A stretch of DNA of 64,000 bases from Rhodanobacter sp. LX-99 (GTDB lineage: Bacteria; Pseudomonadota; Gammaproteobacteria; Xanthomonadales; Rhodanobacteraceae): positions 124,001 to 188,000 of the forward strand of contig NZ_JAHFVL010000002.1 in assembly GCF_018599185.1 (NCBI RefSeq), read 5' to 3'. The notes below the pieces were generated by a model. That model saw nothing but the letters and a program-made list of their open reading frames with translations. It made no database searches and was not told where the DNA came from. Position 1 is the first letter of the stretch. Every line of letters begins with the position of its first letter. The position numbers were made by a program, and so were the translations under genes. Below are positions 1,982-48,475 of the stretch, in pieces.

Positions 1982-3100
1982 TCAGCGCGGCACGCGGTAG
2001 CCGCCGGGCACGCCGTGCGGGCTCAGGGTGATCTGCCACAGCTGGTCGCGGCGGCTGCGGAACACCGCGGCGGAGACGGCGAGGTAGTAGCGCCACATGC
2101 GCCGGAAGCGTTCGTCGTAGCTCGCCGGCAGGCTGGGCCAGGCGGCTTCCACGTTGGCGCGCCAGGCGGTCAGGGTGCGGTCGTAGTCGGCGCCGAAGTT
2201 GTGCCAGTCCTCGATCACGAACAGGTCTTCCAGCGCCACCGCGATCTGGCTGGCGGCGGGGATCATCGAGTTCGGGAAGATGTACTTCTCGATCCACGGG
2301 TCGGTCTGCGCCGGTGCGCTGTTGCTGCCGATGCAATGCAGCAGCGAGAGGCCGTCGTCCTTCAGGCAGCGGCGCACGGTTTCGAAATAGGCGCGGTAGT
2401 TCTTGCCGCCGACGTGTTCGAACATGCCCAGCGAGTACACCGCGTCGAAATGGTCCTCGACGTCGTGGTAGTCCTGCAGGCGGATCTCGATCGGCAGCCC
2501 GGCGCACAGTTCGCGCGCGTACTCGGCCTGCTCCTGCGACACGGTGATGCCGACGCCCTCGATGCCGTAGTGCTCGGCCGCGTACTTCAGCGCCTCGCCC
2601 CAGCCGCAGCCGATGTCGAGCACGCGCTGGCCGGTCTTCAGCTGCAGCTTGCGGCAGACCAGGTCGAGCTTGGCGGCCTGCGCGTCGTCGAGGTTGCCGG
2701 CCTTGGCCCAGTAGCCGCAGGAATACACCATGCGTTTGCCCAGCATGGCGTGGAACAGGTCGTTGCCGAGGTCGTAGTGGGCCTTGCCGATCTCGAACGC
2801 GCGCTCGCCGCGCTGCAGGTTGATGAAGCGCGCCTTGAGGTGGGCGAGCAGGGTGTCGAGCGTCTTCAGTTCCTGGTCCAGCCCGGCGGTGAGCAGGCGG
2901 GTGCACAGGCCGGGCAGATCGTCGGCGTCCCACCAGCCGTCCATGTAGGCTTCGCCCAGGCCCAGCGAGCCATGCGCGAACACGCGCGCGTACAGGCGCT
3001 CGTCGTGCACGTGCAGGTCGATCGGCGCATCGCCGTCGATATGGATGCCTGCCTGCTCGAGCAGTTCGCTGGCGCGGTTCTTCAGGTCGTCCTGGCTCAT
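1982..3100 (-). CDS. cfa: Cyclopropane-fatty-acyl-phospholipid synthase
   Basis: A 372-residue SAM-dependent enzyme that methylenates cis double bonds of membrane phospholipid acyl chains at the inner membrane. The SAM-binding motif VLDIGCGWGEALKYAAE is clear, preceded by the family's Y-x-CGYW block and followed by SLGMFEHVGGKNY. Length fits the family. The ATG at 3100 (MSQDDLKNRA) has GAGG just upstream; a longer open frame upstream overlaps the preceding gene and is not needed. It lies 31 bp behind the DUF190 gene and in the same direction as crcB, so it may be the last gene of a fluoride-riboswitch operon. An own promoter in the short gap is not excluded. Confidence 0.93.
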   Translation of the reverse strand: MSQDDLKNRASELLEQAGIHIDGDAPIDLHVHDERLYARVFAHGSLGLGEAYMDGWWDADDLPGLCTRLLTAGLDQELKTLDTLLAHLKARFINLQRGERAFEIGKAHYDLGNDLFHAMLGKRMVYSCGYWAKAGNLDDAQAAKLDLVCRKLQLKTGQRVLDIGCGWGEALKYAAEHYGIEGVGITVSQEQAEYARELCAGLPIEIRLQDYHDVEDHFDAVYSLGMFEHVGGKNYRAYFETVRRCLKDDGLSLLHCIGSNSAPAQTDPWIEKYIFPNSMIPAASQIAVALEDLFVIEDWHNFGADYDRTLTAWRANVEAAWPSLPASYDERFRRMWRYYLAVSAAVFRSRRDQLWQITLSPHGVPGGYRVPR

Positions 3101-3131
3101 GCGTTGCCTCGCGATGCGCGGTTCGTGATGA

Positions 3132-3470
3132 TCAATGCTTGCCGAGTACCGCGAAGCTTGCCGGCGAACGTGCATACGTCGCGTCGATGCCGGCGCTGCG
3201 CACCAGCTGCAGCAGCAGTTCGGCCTGTTCCTCGCGCAGCAGGAACTCGACCTTCACCGGCAGGTCGTCGGCGAGTTCGAAGAACTGTTCCTCGTGCAGC
3301 ACGCCGTGCCGGCCGAAGCCGGCGATCGCGCGGAACACCGAACCGCCGCCCAGGCCGTGCGCCTTGGCCTGTTCCAGCAGCCACTCCGACAGCAGCATGC
3401 CGCCATGCTTCGCGCGCGAGTGGCAGTAGAAATACAGGTGCACGCCGTGTTGCAGGGTTTCCTGGTTCAT
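3132..3470 (-). CDS. DUF190 family protein
   Basis: A 112-residue cytosolic protein of the DUF190 family, small alpha/beta proteins with a ferredoxin-like (PII-like) fold and no proven biochemical role. Recognisable features are the strand HLYFYC near the start, the helix LLSEWLLEQAKAHGL, and the family-typical RAIAGFGRHGVLHEE followed by DLPVKVEFL. DUF190 genes are often found beside crcB in other bacteria; here it sits 14 bp behind crcB. The ATG at 3470 is preceded by a GGGAGCAGC ribosome site. A role accessory to fluoride export is inferred from context only. Confidence 0.85.
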   Translation of the reverse strand: MNQETLQHGVHLYFYCHSRAKHGGMLLSEWLLEQAKAHGLGGGSVFRAIAGFGRHGVLHEEQFFELADDLPVKVEFLLREEQAELLLQLVRSAGIDATYARSPASFAVLGKH

Positions 3471-3484
3471 GCGCTGCTCCCGGT

Positions 3485-3871
3485 TCAGTGGCGCAAGAGG
3501 CTGCGGGTGAGGGCGATGCCGAGCACGGTCATCGCCAGCGAGCCGATCACGTGCATCGCCACGTGGCCGCTGAACCACAGGTATTGCTGGCGCAGCAGCA
3601 GGGTGGCGGATTCGGCCGAGAAGGTGGAGAACGTGGTCAGCCCGCCGAGAAAGCCGGTGAACACGAACAGCCGCAGCGCCGGCGACAGTGCCTGGAAGTG
3701 ATCGAACAGGCCCATCACGCAACCCATCAGCAGGCCGCCGGCGAGGTTCGCCGCCAGCGTGCCGAGCGGCAGGGTGGGGAAGACGGGATTGAGCAGTACG
3801 CCCAGCCCCCAGCGCAGCCAGCATCCCAGGGCGCCACCGACGCCGATCGCCACAAATCCGTTCCAGCCCAC
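3485..3871 (-). CDS. crcB: Fluoride efflux channel CrcB (Fluc)
   Basis: A 128-residue, four-helix membrane protein that forms dual-topology dimeric fluoride channels and exports F-. Family signatures are present: GGALGCWLRW, PLGTLAANLAGGLLMG (the conserved Asn of the pore) and the TGFLGGLTTFSTFSAE motif that carries the Phe box and the sodium site. A GTG start at 3871 is chosen because AGGAGG lies seven bases upstream and no suitable ATG exists in frame. The leader carries a fluoride riboswitch, so expression should be induced by fluoride. First gene of a probable crcB-DUF190-cfa operon. Confidence 0.92.
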   Translation of the reverse strand: MGWNGFVAIGVGGALGCWLRWGLGVLLNPVFPTLPLGTLAANLAGGLLMGCVMGLFDHFQALSPALRLFVFTGFLGGLTTFSTFSAESATLLLRQQYLWFSGHVAMHVIGSLAMTVLGIALTRSLLRH

Positions 3872-3943
3872 GTGCGTGCCTCCTGACAGTGAAAGTGTCC
3901 GGTCGCCGCGGCGGCAGGCACGCCTGCGCCGCCGGAAGCCGGG

Positions 3944-4038
3944 GGTGCAGGCATCATCAACTTCAACGCGGGGATCACGAGAAGCGGTTTGTCCCGGTGT
4001 GCGAGAGGGTTCCGGAACGGGAGGCATGCCATCTCCGA
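3944..4038 (-). promoter_or_regulatory. Fluoride riboswitch (crcB motif)
   Basis: Read on the minus strand, the leader begins with GGAGATGGCATGCCTCC, the hallmark first stem and GAUGG of the crcB motif. It then has CAAACCGC and ends with TTGATGATGCCTGCA. The GGCAT of the first block can pair with ATGCC of the last, as in the known pseudoknotted fold. A variable hairpin (TCCGG...CCGGGA) is inserted between the first stem and the AACCGC segment, where the family tolerates insertions. The motif ends about 75 bases before the GTG of crcB. Fluoride binding should switch the downstream gene on; the expression platform was not resolved. Confidence 0.88.
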
Positions 4039-4121
4039 GGGGCCATCCTAGTCGATCCGGCGGCCCCGCCGTCAAGCGCCGCCGTCTATACTGCGCGACC
4101 CGTCGACATCCCCGTGCCGCC

Positions 4122-5390
4122 ATGAACCCAGCACCTCGCACCGTGCGCCGCAGCCTGCCCTGGCTGCTGGCCGCGCTGTCGATGATCGGCCCGTTCTCGA
4201 TCGATGCGGTGTTCCCGGCGTTCCCGCTGGTCGGTGTCCGCTTCCAGGTTGACGACGCGGCGCTGCAGCAACTGGTCAGCGTGTACCTGATCACCTATGC
4301 GGCGATGAGCCTGTTTCATGGCGCGATCTCCGACGCGATCGGGCGCAAGCCGGTGATCGTCGCCGGCATGCTGGTCTACGCGCTGGCCTCGGTGGGCGCG
4401 GCGACGTCCACCTCGTTCGCGATGCTGCTGGCCTGCCGTGGCCTGCAGGGCGTGTGCGCCGGCGCCGGGCTGGTGGTGGGACGCGCGGTGATCCGCGACA
4501 GCCTGGAAGGGCCGGCCGCGCAACGACTGATGTCACAGGTGATGATGATCTTCGGGGTGGCGCCGGTGATCGCGCCGATGGTCGGTGCGCTGCTGCTGCC
4601 GCTCGGCGGCTGGCACGGCATCTTCTGGCTGCTGGCCGGGTTCACCTTGCTGCTGGCGCTGGCCCTGCAACTGTTCCTGGACGAGACCCATCCGCCGGCA
4701 CAGCGCACGCGGTTTGCGCCGCGGCCGCTGCTGGCCGGCTACGCTTCCTTCGGCCGCGACCGGCTGTTCTGGCCGCTGCTGGTTTCCAGTTCGGTCAATT
4801 TCGCCGGGCTGTTTTTGTACATCGCCTCGGCGCCGCGCATCGTGCGCGAGCTGCTGCAGCTGTCGGCGCAGGGCTTTCCGTGGCTGTTCCTGCCGGTGGT
4901 GACCGGCCTGATCGGTGGCGCCTGGCTGTCCGGTCGGATGGCCGAACGGCGCAGCGCGAAGTTCACGGTGAGCCTGGGTTACGCGGTGATGCTGCTGGCG
5001 TGTGCGGCGCACTTGCTGCTGGCGCTGGCGCTGCCCGCGCCGCGGCTGCCGTGGTCGATGCTGCCGTTGATCCTGCACGGCATCGGCGTGCAGCTGGCGT
5101 TCCCCACTCTCACGCTGCTGCTGCTGGATCGTTTCCCGCACCAACGCGGCGGGATTTCCTCGGTGCAGGCGTTTGCCAGCCTGCTGCTGTGCAGCTTCGT
5201 GGCCGGGGTGATGTCGCCGCTGCTGTCGACCAACATGCTGCATCTGGCGCTGGGCGCGTCGGGGTTGACCCTGGCCGGCGTGCTGGCGTGGTGGCGCTAT
5301 CACCGCATCACGCGCCAGCCGCTGGATCAGCCACTGGCCGGCGCCGATACGGCGGTGGCGATGCAGGCGGAGATTGCCGAGCCGCGCTGA
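4122..5390 (+). CDS. Bcr/CflA family multidrug efflux MFS transporter
   Basis: A 422-residue inner-membrane protein with about twelve hydrophobic segments. The early SIDAVFPAFP (the family's D-x-Y/F-LPA-like helix 1), ISDAIGRKPVIVAG (the MFS loop 2-3 motif) and GAGLVVGRAVIRD (the drug-proton antiporter motif with its conserved Arg) place it in the DHA1 Bcr/CflA group. These pumps export bicyclomycin, chloramphenicol, dipeptides or cysteine; the substrate cannot be predicted here. The ATG at 4122 is taken; upstream in-frame codons would run into the crcB regulatory region. It diverges from crcB with only about 85 bp to the riboswitch. Confidence 0.88.
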   Translation: MNPAPRTVRRSLPWLLAALSMIGPFSIDAVFPAFPLVGVRFQVDDAALQQLVSVYLITYAAMSLFHGAISDAIGRKPVIVAGMLVYALASVGAATSTSFAMLLACRGLQGVCAGAGLVVGRAVIRDSLEGPAAQRLMSQVMMIFGVAPVIAPMVGALLLPLGGWHGIFWLLAGFTLLLALALQLFLDETHPPAQRTRFAPRPLLAGYASFGRDRLFWPLLVSSSVNFAGLFLYIASAPRIVRELLQLSAQGFPWLFLPVVTGLIGGAWLSGRMAERRSAKFTVSLGYAVMLLACAAHLLLALALPAPRLPWSMLPLILHGIGVQLAFPTLTLLLLDRFPHQRGGISSVQAFASLLLCSFVAGVMSPLLSTNMLHLALGASGLTLAGVLAWWRYHRITRQPLDQPLAGADTAVAMQAEIAEPR

Positions 5391-43144: not shown

Positions 43145-43588
43145 TCAGCCGCGCGCCAGCGCGCCCTCGACGAACTGCTGCAGCTGCGCCGCGTTCAGCG
43201 CGCCGGACTGCCGCGCGATCTCGCGGCCCTGCTTGAACAGGATCAGGGTGGGAATGCTGCGGATGTTGAAGCGCCCGGCCAGTTGCGGCTGCGCTTCGGT
43301 ATCCAGCTTGGCCAGCCGCAGGCGCGGTTCGAACCTGCCGGCGGCCTGCACGAACACCGGCGCGAAGCCGACGCACGGGCCGCACCATGGAGCCCAGAAA
43401 TCCACCAGCACCGGCAGGTCGCCGCGGCCGGCGATCGCGTCGAAATTCGCCGCGGTCAATTCCGCCGGGTGTCCCGCGAACAGCGCCTGCTTGCAGCGGC
43501 CGCAGTTCGGATGCTCGCCGATGCGTTCGGCCGGCACGCGGTTCAGCGCGCCGCAATGCGGACAGGGGATGGCCCGTGGTGTACTCAT
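43145..43588 (-). CDS. trxC: Thioredoxin 2 (TrxC)
   Basis: A 147-residue thioredoxin with an N-terminal zinc-finger: CPHC (residues 9-12) and CGRC (29-32), then the thioredoxin fold with active site FWAPWCGPC and cis-Pro loop SIPTLILF. TrxC works under oxidative stress in the cytosol. The N-terminus MSTPRAIPCPHCGALNRVPAERIG is typical. The start codon lies 88 bp from that of the HERAH-motif gene on the opposite strand. Confidence 0.95.
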   Translation of the reverse strand: MSTPRAIPCPHCGALNRVPAERIGEHPNCGRCKQALFAGHPAELTAANFDAIAGRGDLPVLVDFWAPWCGPCVGFAPVFVQAAGRFEPRLRLAKLDTEAQPQLAGRFNIRSIPTLILFKQGREIARQSGALNAAQLQQFVEGALARG

Positions 43589-43676: not shown

Positions 43677-44135
43677 ATGCCGCAACGTGCCGACGCCTCC
43701 GCTTCACGCTGGCCGCAGCGAAGCCTGCTTGCGCTGGGCATGTTGTGGACCCTGCCGAACAGCTTGCTCGGCCTGCTGCTGGGCGTGGCCGGCGTGGCCT
43801 TCGGCGCGCGCATGCGCTGGCAGCCGCGGGAACTGGCGCTGGTGGTGCGCCGCTGGCCGTGGGGGCGCGGCGGGGCGCTGACCCTGGGCAACGTGATCGT
43901 GCATACCGGCGAGCGCCTGGACGTGCCATGCCTCACCTACGCGCATCGCGCCGGCCGCGGTATCGGTCTGCCCGTGTCGCTGGCCGACCACGAACGCGCG
44001 CACGTCTACCAGTACATGCTGCTGGGCCCGCTGTTCCTGCCGCTGTACCTGCTGTGCGGCGGGGTCAGCGCGCGCAACCCGTTCGAGCGCGCGGCCGACC
44101 GCTACGCCAGCTCGGGACGCGGCTGGTGGCCGTGA
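43677..44135 (+). CDS. Membrane protein with HERAH motif, family of unknown function
   Basis: A 152-residue protein with two hydrophobic segments (about 17-40 and 113-130). Between them are LTLGNVIVHTGERLD and SLADHERAHVYQYMLLGPLFLPLYLL, ending NPFERAADRYASSG. HERAH fits HExxH and is placed just before a membrane helix, as in some membrane metalloproteases, but a third ligand is not evident. I know the pattern only from uncharacterised bacterial proteins. The ATG at 43677 (MPQRADASAS) has no strong ribosome site. Confidence 0.65.
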   Translation: MPQRADASASRWPQRSLLALGMLWTLPNSLLGLLLGVAGVAFGARMRWQPRELALVVRRWPWGRGGALTLGNVIVHTGERLDVPCLTYAHRAGRGIGLPVSLADHERAHVYQYMLLGPLFLPLYLLCGGVSARNPFERAADRYASSGRGWWP

Positions 44136-44184
44136 CCGCGGGAAGGCCGATAAGCCGCTACCGCAATCAGGCTGCCGTCTGTGA

Positions 44185-44784
44185 TCAGGCGTGGCGTGGC
44201 ACGAAGCGCAGCGCCACCGAGTTCATGCAGTAGCGCAACCCGGTCGGCCGCGGGCCATCGTCGAAGACATGGCCGAGGTGGCTGTCGCAGCCGGCGCAGC
44301 TGATCGCGGTGCGCTGCATGCCGAACAGGTGGTCGCCGCGCTCGATCACGTTGCTCTTCGCGATCGGCTGCCAGAAGCTGGGCCAGCCGGTACCGGAATC
44401 GAACTCGGTGGCCGCGTCGTACAGCGCGGTGGCGCAAGCCGCGCAACGGAACAGGCCGGGCACGGCGGGGCGCTCGTGCTCGCCGCTGAACGCGCGCTCG
44501 GTGCCCTCGCGGCGCATCACCTCGTACGCCGCCGGCGACAGCCGCCGGCGCCATTGCGCGTCGCTCAGCACCAGCTTCGCCACCTTGCGTGCGCCGAGGT
44601 CGTGGCCGGCATCGTCGAAAATTTCCAGCAACACCTCGCCCGGCGTGCCGACCGGCGTGTTCGCCGCCGCGTACAGCCGCGGCAGCAGCAGGCCGCCGCC
44701 GACGGCCAGCAGCGCGCCACCGCCGAGCGCGGCGCGCAGGAAGCGGCGGCGATCCATCGCGAGGGCTTCATCGATGCGGGACAT
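44185..44784 (-). CDS. msrB: Exported peptide-methionine (R)-S-oxide reductase MsrB
   Basis: A 199-residue MsrB carrying a twin-arginine-type signal (DRRRFLRAALGGGALLAVGGGLLLPRLYA), so it should repair Met-R-sulfoxide in envelope proteins. Catalytic block: FDSGTGWPSFWQP, ISCAGCDSHLGHVFDDGP, and RYCMNSVALRF with the catalytic Cys; structural zinc pairs are CAAC and CAGC. The ATG at 44784 is preceded by GGAGGCTGCC. It follows dipZ by 33 bp and is probably co-transcribed, receiving electrons from DipZ. Confidence 0.93.
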   Translation of the reverse strand: MSRIDEALAMDRRRFLRAALGGGALLAVGGGLLLPRLYAAANTPVGTPGEVLLEIFDDAGHDLGARKVAKLVLSDAQWRRRLSPAAYEVMRREGTERAFSGEHERPAVPGLFRCAACATALYDAATEFDSGTGWPSFWQPIAKSNVIERGDHLFGMQRTAISCAGCDSHLGHVFDDGPRPTGLRYCMNSVALRFVPRHA

Positions 44785-44817
44785 GGCAGCCTCCGTGGAG
44801 ATGCATGCAGCGACCAA

Positions 44818-46548
44818 TCAACCGAACGTGAACGCGTATGCCTGCACGCCCGGATCCAGGAACTCGATCTCGAACAGCCGCTCGCCGCTGCCGTGGGCCT
44901 GGCGCACCAGCTGGTACAGACGCTGGCTGGTGACCGTGCCATTGCCGGAGGCGTCGGTGTCCATGCCGTGGTCGGCGCCGGGCGGCTTGCCGTCGATGCT
45001 GACGCGGTAGCGGATCGGCTTGCCGTCGGCAGCCGGGCCGAGCACCAGGTGCAGGTCGCGGCCGCGGAAGCGGTAGACGATGCGGCCGCCGGCCTGCTCC
45101 AGTTGCGCGTTTTCGTCGCGCACGGTCCAGCGGCCGTCGAGCGACCACTGGTCTGCGGCGAGCGAGGCAGGTGCGTGATAGTCGTGAGCATCGTCGCGCG
45201 CCACCCGGCCGCCGACGAAGTTCATCGCGCGGGCGTAACCGACGTAGGTTTCCGGCGAACGGGCGGGGTCGTTCGACGCGGCCGCCTCGACGCCGCGGTG
45301 GTCGTCGCTGACGTAGCCGCCGGGTAGGTTCTTCTGGCCGGCGTCGGTCAGCAACTGGCGGATCACGTCCTCGCTTTCCCGGTATTCGCCTTCGCCGAAG
45401 TGGTGATGACGGATCTGCCCCTGCGCGTCGATGAAGTAGTGCGCCGGCCAGTACTCGTTGTCGAAGCCTTTCCAGATCGCATAGTCGTTGTCCAGCGCGA
45501 CCGGGTAGTCGACGCCCAGGTCCTTGATCGCCTTTGCTACGTTGGCCGGATCCTTCTCGAACGCGAACTCCGGCGCATGCACGCCGATCACCACCAGGCC
45601 GTGGTCCTTGTACTTGTCGGCCCAGCCGCGCACGTACGGCAGCGAGCGGATGCAGTTGATGCAGGAGTAGGTCCAGAAGTCGACCAGCACCACCTTGCCG
45701 CGCAAGGACTCGGTGCTCAGCGGCGGGCTGTTCAACCACTGCGTGGCGCCGGCCAGCGACGGGAACGTGCCTTCCACCGGCAGTGGCTCGCCGGCCTTCG
45801 GCGCGGGCTGCGGCACCGGTGCCGGGCGCACGGCGTTGATCAGCTTCTGCTCGATGCCGCCGGTGCTGGCCAGCGAGACGCGGGTGAGCAGGCCGGTATC
45901 CAGGCCCAGCGCGATCGCGGCCACGCCGCACAGCACCAGCACGCCGAGCGCACGGCGCACCCACTCGCCGGCGCCGAGCGAGCGCTTCATCAGCGCGAGC
46001 ACCTTGCCGCCGATCAGCAGCGCCAGGCCCAGCGAGGTGGCCGCGCCGGCGGCGTAGGTGAGCAGCAGCAGGGTGGTCTGCACGCTGGCGCCGTTCAGTG
46101 CCGCGCCGGTCAGCAGCAGGCCAAGGATCGGCCCGGCGCAGGGCGCCCACAGCAGGCCGGTGGCGACGCCGAGGCCGGCCGCGCCCCAGATCGAATCGCC
46201 GTCGCCGGCCGAGCGCTGCGACAGCCGGTTGCCCAGCGCCACGAACGGGCGGGTGATCCATTCGGCCAGCCGGGTCGACAACAGGGTCAGGCCGAGGAAG
46301 GCCAGCACCAGCATCGCCACGTAGCGGCCGTACTGGTTCGCGTGCACCGCCCAGCCGCCGCCGAGTGCGGCCAGCGTAGCGACCACGGCGAAGGTGATCG
46401 CCATGCCCAGCAGCATCGGGAAACCATTGCGCATGAACGGCCGGTCGGAGCGGGCGAACACGAACGGCAGCACAGGCAGGATGCACGGGCTGAGGATGGT
46501 CAGTACGCCGCCGAGATAGGCGAGGATCAACACGAGCATGGGGAGCAT
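44818..46548 (-). CDS. dipZ: DipZ-like CcdA-thioredoxin fusion protein
   Basis: A 576-residue membrane protein that carries reducing power from cytosolic thioredoxin to the envelope. Residues 1-215 are a CcdA domain with redox Cys22 (LSPCILPVLP) and Cys137 (LLWAPCAGP). Residues about 265-410 form a thioredoxin-like domain with SCINC (Cys296/Cys299), and the C-terminal 150 residues are the DipZ-type carbohydrate-binding-like domain (VYRFRGRDLHLVLGP, VSIDGKPPG). The start at 46548 or the ATG at 46539 are both possible. Transcribed from a sigma-type promoter at 46570-46595, divergent from the ECF sigma gene. Confidence 0.93.
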   Translation of the reverse strand: MLPMLVLILAYLGGVLTILSPCILPVLPFVFARSDRPFMRNGFPMLLGMAITFAVVATLAALGGGWAVHANQYGRYVAMLVLAFLGLTLLSTRLAEWITRPFVALGNRLSQRSAGDGDSIWGAAGLGVATGLLWAPCAGPILGLLLTGAALNGASVQTTLLLLTYAAGAATSLGLALLIGGKVLALMKRSLGAGEWVRRALGVLVLCGVAAIALGLDTGLLTRVSLASTGGIEQKLINAVRPAPVPQPAPKAGEPLPVEGTFPSLAGATQWLNSPPLSTESLRGKVVLVDFWTYSCINCIRSLPYVRGWADKYKDHGLVVIGVHAPEFAFEKDPANVAKAIKDLGVDYPVALDNDYAIWKGFDNEYWPAHYFIDAQGQIRHHHFGEGEYRESEDVIRQLLTDAGQKNLPGGYVSDDHRGVEAAASNDPARSPETYVGYARAMNFVGGRVARDDAHDYHAPASLAADQWSLDGRWTVRDENAQLEQAGGRIVYRFRGRDLHLVLGPAADGKPIRYRVSIDGKPPGADHGMDTDASGNGTVTSQRLYQLVRQAHGSGERLFEIEFLDPGVQAYAFTFG

Positions 46549-46569
46549 CCGTGGAAGGTTGTCTGGTTA

Positions 46570-46595
46570 TTCGCCGTTGCCCTAGCGAGGGTTAC
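46570..46595 (-). promoter_or_regulatory. Predicted ECF (SigF/ECF16-like) promoter of dipZ-msrB
   Basis: On the minus strand GTAACC (46595-46590) is followed by exactly 16 bases and CGAA (46573-46570). This is the pattern I know for the Caulobacter SigF/NrsF regulon (GTAACC-N16-CGAA). The dipZ ATG is about 22 bases downstream. Confidence 0.7.
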
Positions 46596-46608
46596 GCGCA
46601 GGCACGAA

Positions 46609-46634
46609 GTAACGTTGGCGCCGGCGGCAGCGAA
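46609..46634 (+). promoter_or_regulatory. Predicted ECF promoter of the sigma/anti-sigma operon
   Basis: GTAACG (46609-46614), 16 bases, CGAA (46631-46634): one mismatch from the motif on the other strand and with the same spacing. The sigma gene ATG at 46667 lies 32 bases downstream with GGAG before it. This predicts autoregulation. Confidence 0.65.
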
Positions 46635-46666
46635 TACCTGTCAGGCGTTCCGCCGCGGAGCGAAGC

Positions 46667-47332
46667 ATGTCGCAAGTCTTGACCGCCACCGGCTTCATGG
46701 GTCTAGATAGTGGACTTTCCCTGCTGACGAGTCTCGACCGGACCGTGCCAGCCGACGTCACCATGGTGAACGACAGCGAATCGCCCGGCCAGCGCCGGGC
46801 GGCGTGGATGGCGGCTGCGCAGGCCGGCGACCGGCGTGCCTACGAGAGGCTGCTGGCCGATTCGGTGGCGCTGATCCGTGCCACCGCGCGGCGCCAGGGC
46901 GTGGCGCAGGATCATCTGGACGACGTGGTGCAGGAGACCCTGATCACCGTGCACCGGGTGCGCCACACCTACGACCCGACCCGCTCCTACGATGCGTGGC
47001 TGACTGCGATCGCCAGCCGCCGTGCGATCGACGCCCTGCGCAGCCGCGGCCGTCGCGACAGCCGCGAACTGCACGACGATTTCGCGCTCGACCAGCATCC
47101 GGATGCCGACGATGCCAGCGCGGCCACCGAAGGCGAACAGCGCGCGCAGCGCCTGCACGAGGCGATCGCCGAGTTGCCGCCGGGCCAGCGCGAGGCGGTG
47201 GAACAACTGGGCCTGCGCGAGCGTTCGCTCAGCGAGGCGGCCGAGCTGACCGGGCGCAACACCGGCGCGCTGAAAGTGAACCTGCATCGCGCGCTGAAGG
47301 CGCTGCGCGAACGCTTCCATGGAGAACCCTGA
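46667..47332 (+). CDS. ECF RNA polymerase sigma factor (SigF/ECF16-like)
   Basis: A 221-residue sigma-70-family factor. Region 2 spans about residues 47-120 (AQAGDRRAYERLLADSVALIRATARRQG; HLDDVVQETLITVHRVRHTYDPTRSYDAWLTAIASRRAID) and region 4 about 160-215 (LPPGQREAVEQLGLRERSLSEAAELTGRNTGALKVNLHRALKAL). The ATG at 46667 has GGAG and fits the predicted promoter; an in-frame ATG at 46763 would give a more typical 189-residue ECF factor, so the first 32 residues are uncertain. The following gene is an NrsF-type anti-sigma factor, which places it in that ECF group. Confidence 0.9.
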   Translation: MSQVLTATGFMGLDSGLSLLTSLDRTVPADVTMVNDSESPGQRRAAWMAAAQAGDRRAYERLLADSVALIRATARRQGVAQDHLDDVVQETLITVHRVRHTYDPTRSYDAWLTAIASRRAIDALRSRGRRDSRELHDDFALDQHPDADDASAATEGEQRAQRLHEAIAELPPGQREAVEQLGLRERSLSEAAELTGRNTGALKVNLHRALKALRERFHGEP

Positions 47333-47336
47333 CGTG

Positions 47337-47990
47337 ATGTCCGACCCGCAATCCCATGAGGCGCTGATCGACCGCCTTGGCACCGACCTGGTGCCGGTGC
47401 GGCGTCTGCTGCCGCCATGGCTGCGTACCGCCGGCTGGCTGCTGGTGGTGGTGGCGCTCGCGATCGGGTTGCTGATGCATTACGGCGCGGGCCCGATGCT
47501 GCGGCGTTGGGCCGCCACGCCGGATCTGGCCTGGGCCGGCATCGGTGCGGTGATCACCGCGATCTGCGCGGCGTGGGCCGCGTTCGCGTTGGGCGTGCCG
47601 GGGCGCCGTGCGGCGTGGGCGTGGCTGCCGCTGCCCGGGGCCCTGCTGTGGATCGGCGCCAGCGGCCTCGGCTGCCTGCGTGAATGGATCGCGCCGGGCA
47701 CCGAGATCGCCGGCATGCATCAGTCCGCCGACTGCCTGATTTTCATCATCAGCTTCTCGGTGCCGCTGTCCGCCTTGCTGATCATGCTGCTGCGCCGCGC
47801 CTGCCCGCTGCGGCCGGTGCTGACCGCGGTGCTGATCGGCCTGGCCAGCGCGGCGGCCTCGGCCAGTCTGCTGGAGATCTGCCACTCGTTCGACGCGGCG
47901 GCCACCGACCTGCTGACCCATGCGCTGGCGGTGATCGTGGTGGTGGCAGTCAATGCCGCGATGGGCGGCCGGCTGCTGTCGAGGGCCTGA
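47337..47990 (+). CDS. NrsF family (DUF1109) membrane anti-sigma factor
   Basis: A 217-residue protein with six hydrophobic segments after a short cytosolic N-terminus (LIDRLGTDLVPVRRLLPPWLR), the DUF1109/NrsF architecture. Five cysteines are present (77, 113, 133, 156, 182); positions 133 and 182 match the spacing of the two conserved cysteines reported for Caulobacter NrsF as sensors of heavy-metal/oxidant stress. It follows the sigma gene by 4 bp; GTG at 47334 is an alternative start. It should hold the sigma factor at the membrane until the thiols react. Confidence 0.88.
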   Translation: MSDPQSHEALIDRLGTDLVPVRRLLPPWLRTAGWLLVVVALAIGLLMHYGAGPMLRRWAATPDLAWAGIGAVITAICAAWAAFALGVPGRRAAWAWLPLPGALLWIGASGLGCLREWIAPGTEIAGMHQSADCLIFIISFSVPLSALLIMLLRRACPLRPVLTAVLIGLASAAASASLLEICHSFDAAATDLLTHALAVIVVVAVNAAMGGRLLSRA

Positions 47991-47992
47991 AC

Positions 47993-48475
47993 TCAGTCGC
48001 GGAAGTTGTCGAACTGTAGCGGCAGCTCGACCTCGGACTTGCGCAGCACCGCCATCGCCGCCTGCAGGTCGTCGCGCTTCTTGCCGCTGACGCGCAGCTT
48101 GTCGCCGTTGATCTGCGCCTCGACCTTGAGCTTGGCCGCCTTCAGCTCGGCCACCAGCTTCTTCGCGACCGGCTGCTCGATGCCCTGCTTCACGGTGATC
48201 TTCTGCCGCGAGCCGCCCAGGTTGGTTTCCGGATCGCCGACGTCGAGCGCGCGGATATCGATCTTCCGCGCAGTCAGCCGGCCGCGCAGGATGTCCAGCA
48301 TCTGCTGCAGCTGGAACTCGCTGGGCGCGCTCTGGGTGATCACGCCGTCATCCAGCACGTACTTCGCGTCCACGCCCTTGAAGTCGAAGCGTGTGGTCAG
48401 CTCGCGGTTGGCCTGGTCGATCGCATTGGTCAGTTCGTGCTTGTCGACTTCGGAGATCACGTCAAAGGAAGGCAT
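47993..48475 (-). CDS. yajQ: YajQ family nucleotide-binding protein
   Basis: A 160-residue YajQ protein (MPSFDVISEVDKHELTNAIDQANRELTTRFDFKG, ALDVGDPETNLGGSRQKITVKQGI, VSGKKRDDLQAAMAVLR). In Xanthomonas and Pseudomonas relatives bind cyclic di-GMP and modulate transcription factors; in general the family binds nucleotides/RNA. Standard length. It converges on nrsF (2-bp gap) and diverges from the flavoprotein gene. Confidence 0.94.
   Translation of the reverse strand: MPSFDVISEVDKHELTNAIDQANRELTTRFDFKGVDAKYVLDDGVITQSAPSEFQLQQMLDILRGRLTARKIDIRALDVGDPETNLGGSRQKITVKQGIEQPVAKKLVAELKAAKLKVEAQINGDKLRVSGKKRDDLQAAMAVLRKSEVELPLQFDNFRD

Follow-up and report, generated by a model that had tools for sequence, protein, structure and literature searches.

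Which regulator controls dipZ and msrB, two genes for thiol electron transfer and methionine sulfoxide repair that lie back to back with a sigma factor gene in the genome of Rhodanobacter sp. LX-99? The locus is contained within a stretch of 64,000 nucleotides (assembly GCF_018599185.1, contig NZ_JAHFVL010000002.1, positions 124,001 to 188,000 of the forward strand), here called the window and numbered from its first letter. A previous sequence-only reading of this DNA had proposed a circuit in which an extracytoplasmic function (ECF) sigma factor of the SigF type and the membrane anti-sigma factor NrsF govern dipZ and msrB. The analysis reported here supports and enlarges this proposal. The conservation of paired promoter-like elements suggests, with a probability of about 0.87, that a SigF/NrsF-like pair, related to group ECF16 and endowed with a divergent sensor, governs the operon that encodes it together with a group of exported oxidant-repair genes, in which a methionine sink, methionine sulfoxide reductases (Msr) and electrons supplied by DipZ would be combined. 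The features involved are the following.

44185..44784, minus strand: msrB (SelR 150.7 bits, TIGR00357 above cut-off), with the twin-arginine signal DRRRFLRAA.
44818..46548, minus strand: dipZ (Pfam domains DsbD_TM, Redoxin and Thioredoxin_10), with a thioredoxin-like domain carrying CINC and a C-terminal Thioredoxin_10 domain.
46570..46595, minus strand: candidate dipZ-msrB promoter GTAACC-N16-CGAA (-35 box GTAACC at 46590-46595, -10 box CGAA at 46570-46573).
46609..46634, plus strand: candidate sigma-nrsF promoter GTAACG-N16-CGAA (-35 box GTAACG at 46609-46614, -10 box CGAA at 46631-46634).
46667..47332, plus strand: SigF-like ECF sigma factor of 221 residues (Sigma70_r2 44.2 bits, Sigma70_r4_2 39.9 bits).
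47319..47990, plus strand: NrsF-family six-helix membrane anti-sigma factor, so assigned by PF06532 (67.8 bits, cut-off 26.8).

The identities given earlier to these four genes were confirmed by Pfam, the Sigma70_r2, Sigma70_r4_2 and NrsF scores all lying above cut-off, and the succession of a sigma gene and a NrsF/DUF1109 (PF06532) gene is that of SigF/NrsF (ECF16) systems. The gap between dipZ and the sigma gene (46549-46666, 118 bp) contains two outward-pointing GTAAC-N17-CGAA elements, exactly as first described, with 13 bp between their -35 boxes. One ends 21 nt ahead of the dipZ ATG; the other, which has G and not C at the sixth -35 position, ends 32 nt ahead of the sigma ATG. No other match occurs in the window, where dinucleotide shuffles gave a mean of 0.05 and never reached 2, and both elements fit the published group-16 consensus, i.e. 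the promoter type of SigF/NrsF systems. A sigma-70 consensus scan of positions 44000-48200 returned no promoter-like site, and no RNA family was detected in positions 46400-46900 at E ≤ 1.

Conservation of the pair was evaluated by scanning 120 genomes for PF06532, which matched in 62 of them and scored over the cut-off in 60; within the genus 41 of 45 genomes, the own genome included, had a match. From the 63 loci examined (L009-L071), six were dropped for lack of a tblastn match to one or both window-type proteins (L009, L010, L011, L067, L068 and L071; L009 and L071 overlap). Both elements are present in exact form in 55 of the 57 comparable loci, own locus included, 41 of them in the genus and 14 in other genera of the family, so that the loss of the motif in close relatives, the outcome named beforehand as speaking against the circuit, was not encountered. 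The nine box positions and the spacing are constant across the 55 loci, while the letters of the spacer vary. The divergent element is followed directly by dipZ in 49 loci and by msrB in 6; its distance from the dipZ start is 20-27 nt in 48 of the 49, the exception being L047 with 186. The gap between the -35 boxes measures 13 bp in 20 loci and 14 bp in 8, over a full range of 12 to 294 bp; this range does not support a functional role, such as mutual exclusion, for the close placement of the two promoters.

A third element is found just 3' of nrsF in some relatives (11 of 57 loci), where it precedes methionine-rich peptides (9 loci, recognised by eye), a peroxidase (L037) or DUF2282 and MNIO genes (L023). 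In L023 (G067, 2212-3402), msrB lies behind the divergent element and the DUF2282 and bufferin-type MNIO genes behind the third one, an arrangement possibly intermediate between copper and methionine-repair regulons.

A search of the whole own genome, which the sequence-only reading had suggested, produced ten matches: the two in the window, those preceding genes for an MsrA, a MxKDx peptide, a peroxidase, a peroxiredoxin and a GGDEF protein, and three more (L001, L002, L005). Four further exported oxidant-defence genes were thereby found behind the element. It lies 44 nt upstream of an exported MsrA (PF01625), 54 nt upstream of a secreted methionine-rich peptide of the MxKDx type (L004; TIGR02953 67.5 bits, cut-off 41), 74 nt upstream of a catalase-like peroxidase (PF00199) and 113 nt upstream of an exported peroxiredoxin of the AhpC/TSA family. 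Export of MsrA, peptide and peroxiredoxin was judged by eye from signal-like N-termini; the peptide corresponds to the MxKDx (MrpX/BcrX-like) description in being short, in its MXKDX repeats and in its signal peptide, the latter assigned by eye. The matches at L001 and L002 fall inside frames resembling, by eye, cytidylate kinase and a MnmA-like gene, and that at L005 within a frame to which no product was assigned; all three were taken as chance, a matter of judgement, long frames overlapping accepted sites too.

Orthologs of the candidate targets were then collected from the 45 genomes of the genus, taking at most 30 loci per gene, best first and own included, and a site was counted as kept when an exact element occurred within 300 nt upstream. 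The element is kept in 29 of 30 msrA loci (the best 30 of 45), in 28 of 30 loci of the MxKDx peptide (the best 30 of 37, the relatives' peptides being recognised by eye; two loci share one site, which makes 27 of 29) and in 21 of 26 peroxidase loci (all 26 taken). For the peroxiredoxin, it is kept in 10 of 30 loci (the best 30 of 51), or 10 of the 21 with at least 73% identity, and this gene is counted less surely as a regulon member. The GGDEF gene (L006, C1:1629295-1629320), with the element 29 nt upstream, has it in exact form in 2 of 19 loci (all 19 taken, own included); in near relatives the boxes decay and the spacer is largely kept. This gene was rejected as a target on the basis of these two loci, the match being probably due to chance, and its rejection indicates that the conservation test is able to reject. 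Sets of about 500 letter-shuffled motifs gave a mean of at most 0.074 matches, and none reached the real count.

The distribution of NrsF points the same way. msrA was searched in 30 genomes, not including G071, which has NrsF, and the best msrA of each was inspected for an exact element in the preceding 400 nt. Outside the genus but within the family, 13 of the 15 genomes with NrsF over the cut-off have the site, against none of the 9 without NrsF (Fisher p 4e-5), in a test that is partly confounded, the msrA genes of the NrsF-less genomes being also more distant. One genome, G058, gave no msrA match, and G050, with NrsF below the cut-off, has no msrA site; within the genus, G012 and G037 have neither NrsF nor the site. 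Genes, promoter element, conservation and co-occurrence with NrsF were all directly observed.

Matches taken without any selection were also inspected in three further genomes. The 27 matches include sites of sigma, dipZ and msrA in all three, of the peroxidase in two, of the peptide in two, and of the peroxiredoxin, a second MsrB (SelR) and DoxX in one each; in the four genomes together, 22 of 37 unselected matches precede sigma, oxidant-repair or (once) DoxX genes. As a control, 19 matches of the backwards pattern were compared by tblastn with seven own target proteins (sigma, NrsF, DipZ, MsrB, MsrA, peroxiredoxin and peroxidase; the peptide was left out): none lies in front of any of them, one falls inside the msrB beside dipZ, and one is about 500 nt from a distant ECF gene (29% identity). 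Two sites in single relatives are recorded separately. In L193 (G025, 1501-2527) a sigma-70-family gene that resembles, by eye, RpoH is preceded by the element at about 128-137 nt. In L198 (G033, 1009-1452) it lies 48 nt 5' of the second MsrB, which has no obvious export signal, and the regulon may reach the cytoplasm in G033.

Several observations weigh against the proposed regulon. The own genome contains 10 matches versus 9 for the backwards pattern, a looser form gives 10 versus 19, and the three relatives' genomes give 27 versus 48. Since the matches are not clearly above the backwards control, the pattern count was dropped as proof; it is not specific genome-wide, and for this reason conservation was tested instead, from which, and not from the genome-wide counts of a short pattern, specificity comes. 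The conservation counts for loci of one genus come in turn from related sequences, and are therefore counts of non-independent events. At msrA, 18 of 30 loci were matched by one of the shuffled motifs, and even the GGDEF set comes through the shuffle test; kinship of the sequences inflates this test, so that the conserved fraction is what discriminates. Neither element is present in L012 (G093) and L069 (G050). Peroxiredoxin paralogs near 50% identity have the element in 0 of 9 cases. G054 and G055, with NrsF of the canonical type, lack an exact msrA site, whereas two genomes of the genus, G036 and G043 (86 and 91% complete), have the site and gave no NrsF. The confounding of the msrA test belongs here as well, as does the lack of the canonical cysteine pair in NrsF, described below. 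Finally, the six loci with msrB and no dipZ under the divergent promoter (L017, L023, L027, L038, L062, L065) show that DipZ is not obligatory in the circuit.

The mechanism that would connect these parts is modelled on characterised relatives with regard to sigma binding, inhibition by NrsF, nature of the signal and electron path. At rest, NrsF would keep the sigma factor at the inner membrane; an oxidant or a thiophilic metal, acting on the periplasmic face of NrsF, would set it free, and RNA polymerase with the freed sigma factor would read the GTAAC-N17-CGAA promoters of sigma-nrsF, of dipZ-msrB, of the genes for exported MsrA, MxKDx peptide and catalase-like peroxidase and, less surely, of the peroxiredoxin gene. 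The circuit is probably autoregulated. The MxKDx peptide would act as a sacrificial methionine sink, MsrA and MsrB would reduce the S- and R-sulfoxides of the peptide and of envelope proteins, and DipZ would pass electrons from cytoplasmic thioredoxin, via Cys22/Cys137 and the CINC site, to the Msr enzymes, while peroxidase and peroxiredoxin would remove peroxide.

The signal would be received by NrsF, whose sensor differs from the described one. In canonical NrsF and in OsrA a conserved pair of cysteines is spaced 50 residues apart, at 131/181 and 129/179 (PMC3511200, PMC3420878), Cys129 and Cys179 being the only cysteines of OsrA (PMC3420878). This pair is not present in the NrsF of the window, and the protein was therefore classed as a divergent relative and not as a canonical ECF16 system. 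Residues are numbered from 47319, so that Cys133 and Cys182, earlier proposed as sensor cysteines, correspond to Cys139 and Cys188.

47673..47675, plus strand: codon of NrsF Cys119, predicted periplasmic end of helix 3.
47733..47735, plus strand: codon of NrsF Cys139, counterpart of OsrA Cys129 and NrsF Cys131.
47880..47885, plus strand: codons of NrsF Cys188-His189, His189 aligning with the canonical second cysteine.
47919..47921, plus strand: codon of NrsF His201, predicted periplasmic start of helix 6.

The comparison of these positions covered 56 loci of relatives and, of 1117 database proteins, the 120 listed as closest. Cys139 and His189, the latter 50 residues past the former, are invariant in both sets (56/56 and 120/120); Cys119 is found in 55/56 and 120/120, with Met in its place in G050, His201 in 56/56 and 119/120, Cys188 in 51/56 and 119/120. 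The first of the two proposed sensor cysteines is thus upheld as invariant; the second is off the canonical position, which is held by His189, and the conserved Cys119 had been overlooked. The three canonical NrsF proteins aligned have neither Cys119 nor His201, and carry Cys at position 189. Cys119, Cys139, His189 and His201 are common to six proteins of another family in the order and to one of a third family, all without Cys188.

In an AlphaFold2 model (pLDDT, the predicted local distance difference test score, 84.7) six long helices, predicted to be transmembrane as in NrsF proteins, cover residues 33-55, 68-90, 105-124, 133-159, 166-188 and 195-220. The four residues lie within about 6 residues of helix ends on the same side, with Cys162 on the other; assuming a cytoplasmic N-terminus, they are predicted to be at the periplasmic face, where they could form a possible Cys2His2 site. 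Solved relatives of NrsF were found neither by sequence at E ≤ 0.1 nor by fold at E ≤ 0.001. It is tentatively suggested, at odds somewhat below even, that this clade swapped the two-cysteine sensor for a periplasmic metal-holding (Zn or Cu) Cys2His2 cluster; its oxidation by hypochlorous acid (HOCl), or the displacement of its metal by a thiophilic one, would free the sigma factor. If true, a membrane anti-sigma factor would here contain a redox switch loaded with metal, and one sensor type would serve methionine repair in Rhodanobacteraceae while, in a sister family, being encoded close to genes for copper bufferins.

The last point bears on a variant of the proposed regulon, not exclusive with it, in which the signal is a thiophilic metal such as copper, cadmium or chromate and the damage offset by methionine repair is caused by metal. 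In Caulobacter, chromium and cadmium elicit the SigF/NrsF response (PMC3511200), a Cys2His2 arrangement is a plausible metal site, and sensors with the same four residues are encoded close to MNIO genes of the bufferin type in L330 and L331, the only two of the six other-family loci whose neighbours were scanned with Pfam; bufferins are described as chelating copper, and in L023 both msrB and DUF2282/MNIO genes are placed behind the element. MNIO genes, however, also accompany a canonical NrsF (L071), and are not particular to the Cys2His2 sensor type. Behind the ten own-genome matches no metal-efflux or bufferin gene was recognised, as far as the frames could be read, whereas six of the ten precede sigma and redox genes, and the combination of MxKDx peptide and Msr matches a HOCl-responsive operon of Brucella (PMC8315932). 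A metal signal is held to be rather unlikely, although it is the strongest of the competing explanations.

A distinctly less probable explanation concerns DipZ, which might mainly serve another periplasmic thiol pathway (disulfide isomerisation, cytochrome c maturation), leaving MsrB to receive its electrons from elsewhere. DsbD-type proteins do have several clients, and the six loci without dipZ beside msrB agree with such a role; yet in the window the two genes follow a single element on the same strand, separated by 33 nt, and the thioredoxin domain of DipZ gives a match to the N-terminal part of PRK14018, a model of fused MsrA/MsrB. In Streptococcus, moreover, Etrx thioredoxins are the redox partners of MsrAB (PMC3914529). 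That the boxes owe their conservation to another sigma factor or DNA-binding protein, and go unread by the sigma factor of the window, is very improbable: Rhodanobacter species do possess a ChrR-type ECF pair as well (PMC5507510), but the element agrees with the consensus mapped for group 16 and the msrA site follows the presence of NrsF. Chance matches, for which it may be argued that the genome-wide matches exceed the backwards pattern by one at most, are contradicted by the paired elements and by the ortholog counts; chance is considered refuted for the sites of dipZ, sigma, msrA, peptide and peroxidase, less strongly for that of the peroxiredoxin, and retains a negligible probability.

Some details of the genes complete the description of the SigF/NrsF-like circuit. 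The start of msrB is most likely 44784, the first Met ahead of the twin-arginine stretch, rather than 44817 as assumed earlier, and the distance from dipZ is calculated from it. NrsF probably starts at 47337, by alignment consensus, with 47319 as the alternative; for the sigma factor, tblastn alignments open at residue 1 in most same-genus loci. The closest named NrsF records are from Rhodanobacter sp. Soil772 and R. soli, both at 94%. The twin-arginine translocation (Tat) signal read earlier on MsrB holds, the RR motif being present in all 31 aligned sequences, window included, and this signal predicts Tat export of MsrB. Its zinc and catalytic cysteines are equally conserved (Cys125/128/174/177 in 31/31, Cys197 in 30/31, numbered on the 210-residue reading frame). 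The redox cysteines of DipZ (Cys22, 137, 296 and 299) are found in 25 of 25 full-length sequences, window included. The order DsbD_TM, thioredoxin-like domain and Thioredoxin_10 is what we take to define DipZ. The match of its thioredoxin domain (residues 283-402) to PRK14018 has an E value of 1.2e-7, far below the whole-protein cut-off, and involves what is presumably the thioredoxin domain of that model.

Two neighbourhoods are of interest on their own. A TrxC-type thioredoxin with a zinc ribbon is encoded at 43145-43573 of the window, on the strand of msrB and downstream of it, and could be the feeder of DipZ; one is also near msrB in six relatives' loci, the flank being too short to judge in many. 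In L337 (G050, 3017-4904), a sigma/NrsF pair without the element lies directly 3' of a DsbD_TM-thioredoxin gene and is adjoined by a peroxiredoxin-like gene (43% to the own-genome one), another layout of the same partners.

In the proposed circuit, found in culturable soil bacteria, one promoter element would serve a methionine sink, the sulfoxide reductases for both stereoisomers and a supplier of electrons across the membrane. As natural variants differ at the sensor positions, the way in which NrsF senses, by cysteine oxidation, methionine oxidation or metal, becomes testable, and so does the question of how a single sigma system came to be associated with copper bufferins in certain lineages and with methionine repair elsewhere.

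Parts of the circuit have counterparts elsewhere. Thiol electrons are delivered to extracytoplasmic Msr domains by the Neisseria-type fused Trx-MsrA-MsrB protein, and the electron path to Etrx-MsrAB in Streptococcus reportedly includes a CcdA step. The Streptococcus CcdA-Etrx-MsrAB system resembles the present one in bringing thiol electrons to extracytoplasmic MsrA and MsrB (PMC3914529), and neisserial Msr is under an ECF sigma/anti-sigma pair (PMC3420878). In both groups the Msr domains are fused, whereas msrA and msrB are separate loci here. The Rhodanobacter ECF system reported in PMC5507510 is of the ChrR type, and is not the sigma/NrsF pair of the window.

Caulobacter SigF/NrsF (PMC3511200) shares the sigma/NrsF pair and the GTAACC-N16-CGAA motif, and its regulon includes DoxX, which is also found behind the element in the relative G033. 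It differs in being made up of DUF2282/DUF692/DUF2063/DoxX operons and YedY, under chromate and cadmium stress, and the microarrays reported there gave no difference in msrA expression (PMC3511200). Brucella BcrS/AbcS with BcrXQP (PMC8315932) is similar in its back-to-back (T/C)GTAAC-N17-CGAA promoters, in autoregulation and in a HOCl-inducible target set with a MXKDX methionine-rich peptide and Msr. Repair depends there on a homolog of MsrPQ, which takes quinone electrons in E. coli (PMC8315932), and here would involve MsrA/MsrB and DipZ.

The closest counterpart is Bradyrhizobium EcfF/OsrA (ECF16, DUF1109; PMC3420878), with a sigma factor and a six-helix NrsF/DUF1109 anti-sigma factor, autoregulation, promoters of the form GTAAC(g,a)-N14-15-(c,t)CG(t,a), akin to the element of the window, and a regulon in which a DsbD-core protein, a thioredoxin and three Msr genes recall the dipZ-msrB set. 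The same electron path was proposed by its authors in 2012 (PMC3420878). The link of DipZ to this sigma group, earlier read as an apparent extension of the known regulon, has its precedent there, and a DsbD-type/Msr link to an ECF16-type sigma factor is not new in principle, the present case being an instance of the 2012 EcfF/OsrA proposal. The differences are that the DsbD core and the thioredoxin are encoded there by two genes at a distance from the sigma locus, unlike the fused dipZ here, that the available parts of that report mention neither a MxKDx peptide nor a catalase-like protein, and that Cys129/Cys179 of OsrA are matched here by a sensor with His189 at the second position and an additional Cys119 (PMC3420878). 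A literature search, with subscription papers mostly outside it, did not find the combination in Rhodanobacteraceae or the altered sensor described. The Rhodanobacter version with its altered sensor thus looks like an undescribed form of a general idea known from other bacteria.

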